Shown here: one piece after another, positions 587 through 3,979 of the stretch | Layout: each line of letters begins with the position of its first letter | How positions within the stretch are numbered: the stretch's first letter is position 1 | Translations under genes and position numbers: made by a program | Source of the DNA: a bacterium | Lineage (GTDB): Bacteria; CAIJMQ01; JAADFP01 | Assembly: GCA_027021085.1 (NCBI GenBank) | Contig: JALUVB010000022.1 | Span: 1 to 14,524 of the forward strand | Length of the DNA: 14,524 nucleotides | Direction: 5' to 3' | The notes under the pieces: model-generated | The model's database searches: none | The model's input: only the letters and a program-made list of their open reading frames with translations | What the model was told of the DNA's origin: nothing

Positions 587-883
587 GTGAGAGAAGTCAA
601 AGTGTACTCCTTAAGGATAAATGGGAAGGAAGAGCATACCTTCCGGAGCAAGGGAGCACGAGGTGCTGCTCTGAAAGCTGCTACCCGCGGGTTGAAAGAC
701 AGTGACGGCCTGATCAAACTAAGAGAACATGGCAAAAAGAAAGATGGTTACTATCGCGTCCATGTATTTGAGGGAACCGTAGAAAAAGTTAAAAAACCCG
801 CCAATGCACCTGCCTGGTTGCCAGACACCATCAACAAGCCCAAGGTGAAGAAACTCCGGGTTGAGAAGCTTAAAGAGATCTGA
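587..883 (+). CDS. MC1-family (archaeal-type) chromatin/DNA-bending protein
   Basis: This 98-residue basic protein resembles MC1, the monomeric DNA-bending chromosomal protein of Methanosarcina and relatives. The match runs along the whole length: AALKAATRG (27-35, MC1 has AALKAANRG), IKLREHGKKK (43-52, MC1 has IRLRERGTKK), VHVFEG (58-63) and PAWLP (75-79) followed by KPKVKKLRVEKL (84-95, MC1 has KPFVKKERIEKLE). Length fits the family (about 90-95 residues). The Trp of the PAWMP-type loop, implicated in DNA binding, is kept as Trp77. The Trp expected in the FKxWKEIV segment is replaced by Thr. The GTG start is fixed by AAGGAGGTGA at 571-580. A near-consensus promoter and no co-directional partner suggest it is expressed alone. 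The expected role is non-specific DNA bending and compaction, or recognition of distorted DNA. The family is known mainly from euryarchaea, so acquisition from an archaeon is a likely inference. Confidence 0.85.
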   Translation: MREVKVYSLRINGKEEHTFRSKGARGAALKAATRGLKDSDGLIKLREHGKKKDGYYRVHVFEGTVEKVKKPANAPAWLPDTINKPKVKKLRVEKLKEI

Positions 884-2533: not shown

Positions 2534-3979
2534 ATGAATTCTCTGAAAAAAATAGGTAATTATAAGTGGGAAATCCCCCCGGATTATAAGGCCGGGATGA
2601 GAGTGCCAGGAGTCATTTATGCTTCTTCCCTGCTGGCAGAGCATATTCTTAAGGAGAGAGTGGCAGAGCAGGTGGCAAACGTTGCCTGTCTTCCCGGGAT
2701 AGTCAGATATTCTCTGGCTATGCCCGATGCACACTGGGGGTATGGTTTTCCCATTGGCGGAGTAGCGGCTTTTGACCCGGAGCAAGGAGGAGTAATTTCC
2801 CCGGGAGGAGTAGGATATGACATCAATTGTGGCATCCGGCTGGTAAGAAGCGACCTTACTATCGCAGAGATAAAACCCCGCCTGAAAGAGCTGGTTGATA
2901 CACTCTTCCATACTGTTCCCTGCGGTGTGGGCGTGGGAGGACGCATAAAGCTTTCCTCCCGGGAGGAGAGAGAGATTCTGGTGAAGGGAGCCAGGTGGGC
3001 AGTGGAGCAGGGTATGGGAGTCAAGGATGACCTGGAGGCAACGGAAGAGGGAGGCGCACTGGCCGGGGCTGAGCCGGGTAAAGTTTCCCAGAGAGCATAC
3101 GAACGAGGAAAGAAGCAGGAAGGGACCCTGGGTTCGGGCAACCATTTTCTGGAAATCCAGGTAGTGGAAGAAGTTTATGATGAAAAACTTGCCAATACCA
3201 TGGGAATTTTTCCCGGCCAGATTACCCTCATGATTCATTCCGGTTCCCGGGGATTCGGGCATCAAGTATGTGATGATTTTATAAGAGTAATGATAAAAGC
3301 TGCCAATACCTACGGCATAGAACTTCCCGACCGGCAGTTAGCTTGTGCACCGGTAAATTCGCCGGAAGGCAAAGCATACTTTGCTGCCATGGCCTGCGCG
3401 GCAAACTATGCCTGGTGCAACAGGCAGATAATAATGCACCTGGTCAGAGAAGCTTTTGAGCGGGTGCTGGGAAAATCCTGGGTAGACCTGGGATTGTATC
3501 TTGTTTACGATGTAGCACATAATATAGCCAAGTTTGAGGAATACGAGTTAGAGGGGAAAAAGAAACTTTTATGCGTGCATCGCAAAGGAGCCACGCGTGC
3601 TTTCCCTGCCCACCATCCTCAGTTGCCGGAAAAGTATAAGGCTATCGGGCAACCGGTAATAATTCCCGGAGATATGGGCAGAGCTTCCTATCTTTTGCTG
3701 GGAACACAGAGAGCTTTTCAGGAAACCTGGGGATCCACCTGTCACGGGGCAGGCAGGATGATGAGCAGGCATCAGGCAATTCGCCAGGCCAAGGGGCGTT
3801 CCATAGCCAGGGAGATGGAAGAGAAGGGGATTATAGTGAGGGCACGCGGACGAGATACTCTCTCCGAGGAGATGCCGGAAGCATATAAGGACGTAGCCGA
3901 TGTAGTAGAAGTGGTAGAGAAAGCCGGGCTTTCTCGCAAAATTGCCCGCATGCGACCTTTAGGTGTAGTAAAAGGATAA
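2534..3979 (+). CDS. rtcB: RNA-splicing/repair ligase RtcB
   Basis: This 481-residue protein is a full-length RtcB, which joins 2',3'-cyclic phosphate (or 3'-phosphate) RNA ends to 5'-OH ends using GTP and Mn2+. It acts in tRNA or rRNA repair and splicing. The expected Mn ligands are present: Asp96 and Cys99 in GGVGYDINCG, His204 in GSGNHFLE, His235 in MIHSGSRG and His329 in VAHN. The guanylylated histidine is His404 in CHGAGRMMSR. No intein interrupts it. The N-terminus (LKKIGNYKWEIP, then MRVPGVIYAS) matches family starts, which supports the ATG at 2534 despite the missing SD. Only 12 nt separate it from the next gene, which has its own strong SD, so the two are probably co-transcribed. No archease or RtcA gene is nearby. 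Confidence 0.95.
   Translation: MNSLKKIGNYKWEIPPDYKAGMRVPGVIYASSLLAEHILKERVAEQVANVACLPGIVRYSLAMPDAHWGYGFPIGGVAAFDPEQGGVISPGGVGYDINCGIRLVRSDLTIAEIKPRLKELVDTLFHTVPCGVGVGGRIKLSSREEREILVKGARWAVEQGMGVKDDLEATEEGGALAGAEPGKVSQRAYERGKKQEGTLGSGNHFLEIQVVEEVYDEKLANTMGIFPGQITLMIHSGSRGFGHQVCDDFIRVMIKAANTYGIELPDRQLACAPVNSPEGKAYFAAMACAANYAWCNRQIIMHLVREAFERVLGKSWVDLGLYLVYDVAHNIAKFEEYELEGKKKLLCVHRKGATRAFPAHHPQLPEKYKAIGQPVIIPGDMGRASYLLLGTQRAFQETWGSTCHGAGRMMSRHQAIRQAKGRSIAREMEEKGIIVRARGRDTLSEEMPEAYKDVADVVEVVEKAGLSRKIARMRPLGVVKG

Follow-up and report, generated by a model that had tools for sequence, protein, structure and literature searches.

MC1-family nucleoid proteins in two HU-containing sister bacterial phyla and their probable archaeal origin

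Inter-domain transfers of chromatin proteins are rare and informative, the textbook example being the passage of HU into Thermoplasma. A review lists MC1 for Methanomicrobia and Haloarchaea only (PMC8999374), and we found no report of MC1 in bacteria in the limited collection of papers searched. In the complex of MC1 with DNA, the main contacts are made by Arg25, Pro72, Trp74, Lys86 and Ile89 (DNA-binding residues are numbered here and below as in Methanosarcina thermophila MC1), and Trp74 intercalates (PMC6776556, PMC3928310). Mutants with R25A, W74F, P72A or I89A are defective in binding or bending (PMC6776556, PMC3928310). Mutation of Trp61 to Phe has no effect on binding (PMC3928310). Here we describe an MC1 gene in a bacterial genome and its relatives in other bacteria. 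The window, that is, the whole stretch of DNA analyzed, is an entire contig of 14,524 bases (G000:C22) from a 1.93-Mb genome bin, which is 93.9% complete and carries one MC1 gene.

The MC1 gene, its protein and its neighbors

The gene at 587-883 on the forward strand starts with GTG and encodes a protein of 98 amino acids. The initial annotation had taken this protein for a member of the MC1 family, and sequence searches against Pfam-A and PDB bear this out. PF05854 (MC1) is the sole Pfam-A family matched up to E=1; the match is strong (E=1.4e-19, 70.6 bits against a cut-off of 23 bits), and residues 7-95 of the protein align with positions 5-95 of the 96-position profile. The HU/IHF profile PF00216 was not matched. 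A phmmer search against PDB returned MC1 entries only (1t23, 2khl and 2nbj; E=1.6e-15). The protein is basic (pI 10.2, 11.2 kDa), and its size and charge fit MC1 (about 90-100 amino acids, pI near 10). It is a bacterial variant of the known MC1 family rather than a system of a new kind.

The window protein keeps Arg25, His56, Pro72, Trp74, Lys81, Lys85, Lys86 and Arg88, and Ile89 is replaced by Val, as in many archaeal MC1s. Trp74 is invariant among the sequences compared (18/18 bacterial and 61/61 archaeal). It had been proposed that the DNA-binding arm may have diverged because the second Trp is replaced by Thr. The replacement of Trp61 by Thr is indeed present, but Trp61 is located in strand beta-4, outside the DNA-binding arm, and only 12 of the 61 archaeal sequences have a Trp there. 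With Trp74, Pro72, Arg25, Lys81 and Lys86 in place and the lost Trp61 dispensable, divergence of the arm was not borne out. The protein also has Gly for Gln23 and Gln26, Ala for Arg71 and Leu for Met75; as Q23E and M75L weaken the M. thermophila protein, the affinity of the window protein could be lower. It is predicted from the solved MC1-DNA complexes that a monomer would bind the concave side of DNA without sequence specificity. Arg25 would neutralize the pinched major groove, and Lys86, Arg88 and Val89 would occupy a first minor-groove site. The arm residues Pro72 and Trp74 would wedge into a second minor-groove site, resulting in a sharp V-turn.

An AlphaFold2 model of the window protein was obtained with high confidence (pLDDT 93.3) and has the order strand-strand-helix-strand-strand-strand. 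Structural top matches of the model in a viral library include named MC1-domain proteins (probability 1.00, TM about 0.6; fair to good agreement), and Foldseek against PDB gave no significant match. The structure prediction that had been suggested at the outset gave a confident model whose best-named matches are MC1 domains, but this model superimposes only weakly on 1t23, the NMR structure of Methanosarcina MC1 (Z 3.1, rmsd 4.6 over 72 residues). The fold supports the assignment, although the sequence matches carry more weight. Pairs of close MC1 copies have dN/dS values of 0.02-0.19, mostly about 0.05, and 0.064 against the same-genus copy, indicating that the MC1 protein is under purifying selection. 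Judging from the sequence, the gene probably encodes a working bacterial member of MC1, with DNA bending as its likely activity.

A sigma-70-type promoter, TTTACA-17-TATAAT, lies at 522-550 on the forward strand and matches 11 of 12 consensus positions. It is the only promoter-like site within 400-1100, its score was reached by none of 200 shuffles, and both hexamers recur unchanged in G001, a genome of the same genus. A full Shine-Dalgarno sequence, AAGGAGGT, can be read directly at 571-578 on the same strand. Positions 1-433, also on the forward strand, encode the C-terminal fragment of a MiaB/RimO-type methylthiotransferase that is cut by the contig start; the ORF at 74-433 matches the end of the NCBIfam MiaB profile (positions 330-403 of 418, E=6.5e-12). 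Convergent to MC1 on the reverse strand are a gene for a protein without assigned family (1067-1504) and one for a GspG-like pseudopilin (1501-2283; TIGR01710, E=1.9e-18, which is below the model's own cut-off). The counterparts of this pair (1067-2283) in G001 are 88% and 85% identical, are adjacent there too and also adjoin MC1. The strong promoter, the Shine-Dalgarno sequence and the miaB and pseudopilin neighbors are all present as described in the initial annotation. The near-consensus promoter suggests that MC1 would be abundantly expressed.

The module of MC1 and pseudopilin (477-2328 in the window, 235-2282 in locus L096 of G001) sits elsewhere in G001, in the same orientation. It is flanked by miaB and rtcB in the window and follows a GHMP kinase gene in G001. 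The RtcB-family protein at 2534-3979 of the window best matches the C-terminal part of the NCBIfam model of an intein-containing RtcB relative and has no intein itself. In the G001 copy of MC1 (L096 1898-2155), a 1-base deletion replaces the last residues and truncates the C-terminus; this is either an assembly error or real recent decay.

Distribution of bacterial MC1 and coexistence with HU

The phylum of the window (phylum A) is probably Candidatus Ratteibacteria. One of its genomes, G006, corresponds to JAQURI01, 'Candidatus Ratteibacteria bacterium STD1_7', and G001 corresponds to JAADFP01, which was deposited as 'Caldisericota'. An attempt at 16S identification found no bacterial SSU rRNA in the G000 bin. 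MC1 was found in six of the seven phylum A genomes, the one without it being 64% complete, and in all five genomes sampled from a second phylum (phylum B; three of the five match deposited 'CSMAG' MAGs), which have two to three copies each. Among 386 bacterial genomes surveyed, true MC1 was found in no other lineage. A second bacteria-wide survey took nearly the same genomes as the first and adds little. MC1 is a gene common to two sister bacterial phyla and not a one-off transfer. G193 was considered as a third bacterial lineage with MC1 and rejected as a false positive; its match of 22.7 bits lies within an ORF that, on inspection of its sequence, we take to encode an FtsJ/RlmE-type methyltransferase. 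In phylum B (L103-L114), at least two MC1 paralogues are maintained, each at a conserved site of its own: one adjoins accA and the other the leuA-like and anthranilate-synthase genes.

In an RpoB tree that also includes 16 further bacterial lineages, phyla A and B are sisters (SH-aLRT 98). Furthermore, rpoB and rpoC are fused in both phyla into one ORF of about 2,600-2,690 amino acids where contig extent permits, whereas in the other bacteria that gave a match the genes are separate, with frames of 1,122-1,486 amino acids. The fused protein of G000 has 2,601 amino acids (L169 2128-9933, contig C16), and fused loci in other genomes of both phyla are L148-L153, L155 and L156. The sister relation and the common fusion suggest that MC1 was probably present in the common ancestor of phyla A and B. 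Phylum A is not one clade in the MC1 tree (AU p=0.007). There are two MC1 types, one in family f2 and the other in the window's family, the second copy of G003 and phylum B. Either a duplication in the ancestor followed by losses or a later transfer from one phylum to the other would account for this split.

HU was found in five of the seven phylum A genomes, both genomes without it being incomplete, and in five of the five phylum B genomes. The initial annotation had raised the question of whether the genome lacks HU/IHF; G000 has two HU genes, on contigs C96 and C250, apart from MC1. The idea that MC1 replaces a lost HU was rejected, and since these genomes also encode HU, MC1 supplements HU. 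Acting together with HU, MC1 would make the nucleoid more compact and introduce local bends. It is possible, although we hold this reading only tentatively, that the role of MC1 is local: HU would be the main architectural protein, and MC1 would bend a few sites or serve repair, stress protection or mobile DNA. The presence of HU alongside MC1, with two HU genes in G000, is consistent with such a role, as is the persistence of two to three MC1 paralogues in phylum B, which is compatible with specialized roles. In addition, other candidate nucleoid proteins of Haloferax are more abundant than its MC1 (PMC7613761). The near-consensus promoter of G000 MC1 argues against it, however, and so do the binding of the MC1 family without sequence specificity and the absence of a fixed operon partner of MC1 across the two phyla. 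That MC1 is a main chromatin component in both phyla, which would have had mixed HU-MC1 chromatin, with a bacterial and an archaeal constituent, since their common ancestor, we regard as rather doubtful.

Origin of the bacterial MC1 clade

In an unrooted tree of 95 usable alignment columns, the 18 distinct bacterial MC1 sequences of this type form one group (94/68 without long branches, 100/73 with them, and 96% of bootstrap trees). All members of the bacterial clade have a 4-residue insertion between helix and strand. In the window protein it is SDGL at residues 39-42 (codons at 701-712, forward strand), the gap position inside KDSDGLIKL being arbitrary by one residue. The nearest relatives of the clade are two MC1 genes of the Altiarchaeales archaeon WOR_SM1_SCG (G391), which is represented by one single-cell genome; the joint clade is supported at 100/99, and the two G391 copies branch successively below the bacterial clade. 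The insertion is absent from G391 and from the other archaeal MC1s compared, Altiarchaeota-type included. Grouping of G391 MC1 with other nearby archaea was rejected (AU p=0.0007). The gene for aIF2-beta (PF01873) directly adjoins one of the G391 copies, showing that this contig is archaeal. All bacterial MC1 copies examined have a GGAGG core upstream, and neither of the G391 copies does.

Because the G391 copies lie below the bacterial clade and have no insertion, transfer from archaea to bacteria is favored. The archaeal origin proposed in the initial annotation is thus the best reading of the sequences, and this was most likely an ancient transfer of a DNA-bending nucleoid protein. Since the alignment is short and the tree is unrooted, the direction of transfer is what we infer from these features. 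The common ancestor of both phyla would have received MC1 from an archaeon in the G391 lineage or close to it, and duplication of MC1 and then partial loss would have followed. The reverse, in which this MC1 subtype arose or diversified in a bacterial ancestor and then passed to the G391 lineage, is improbable. The separation of G391 MC1 from those of its archaeal relatives and its identity of up to 66-72% with bacterial MC1 could be explained in this way, but the two G391 copies split off in succession beneath the bacterial clade, and they have neither the insertion nor a Shine-Dalgarno sequence. Moreover, many archaea carry the family (63 of 394 genomes around G391), which among the bacteria sampled is confined to two phyla. 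As for a vector of the archaea-to-bacteria transfer, phage and plasmid were considered and rejected; there was no phage match and no viral-contig relative, and plasmid matches were in Halococcus only.

In G004, the MC1 gene lies within a 593-kb contig, between genes for an NAD-dependent epimerase and a TPR protein, and HU is encoded on the same contig. Around it are genes presumably for RNase Y, a WecA-like transferase, a LolCD-like ABC system and lysyl-tRNA synthetase (LysS), judging by their sequences. This gene order is kept in G003, G005 and, across its short contig, G006. In phylum B, MC1 is beside lipid A acyltransferase/accA genes or beside leuA-like, anthranilate synthase and EPSP synthase genes. 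The bacterial neighbors and synteny confirm the bacterial host that had been assumed. Archaeal contamination of the bins is extremely improbable, and for the window's MC1 clade it is effectively refuted: the genomes are fragmented bins of uncultured organisms, and one MC1, on contig C2 of G006, shares its contig with genes that may belong to a foreign element, but examined clade contigs have bacterial neighbors, synteny is conserved across four genomes, one 593-kb contig carries both MC1 and HU, and bacterial Shine-Dalgarno sequences precede the MC1 copies. The MC1 on G006:C2 (L101 9686-10060, in a 60-kb contig) is the second one in this Ratteibacteria bin and is Methanosarcina-like. It adjoins genes for a SET-domain protein, Salactin (PF25229) and an RNA ligase of the T4 type amid many small ORFs, and this region is possibly an archaeal virus or mobile element binned in.

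Comparison with known chromatin proteins

The finding is somewhat larger than the initial annotation supposed, as an archaeal chromatin family is stably kept by two sister bacterial phyla. An archaeal DNA-bender appears to be fixed in these phyla without displacing HU, and the co-occurrence of MC1 and HU opens the question of how a single nucleoid accommodates two DNA-bending proteins that are unrelated to each other. Compared with MC1 of M. thermophila CHTI55 (1t23, 2khl, 2nbj), the window protein belongs to the same Pfam family, has similar size and charge and aligns over nearly the full length. It differs in its bacterial host, which also has HU, in its helix-strand loop, which has its own SDGL residues, and in its longer beta-hairpin (KKKDGYYR versus TKK). 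G391 MC1 is closer, being 62-67% identical to the window protein, and both have the long KKDG hairpin and the REHG motif. Unlike the window protein, G391 MC1 has no 4-residue insertion, no Shine-Dalgarno sequence and an archaeal neighborhood with aIF2-beta. HU (PF00216) likewise bends DNA non-specifically by minor-groove wedging, by analogy (PMC6776556), but it has an unrelated fold, is a dimer and is encoded separately in the same genomes. HTa of Thermoplasma is a bacterial HU that was acquired by archaea and fixed at the root of the lineage (PMC7613761), and is likewise an inter-domain transfer of a chromatin protein. That transfer went in the opposite direction, and Thermoplasma has no histones, whereas in the two bacterial phyla described here HU was kept.
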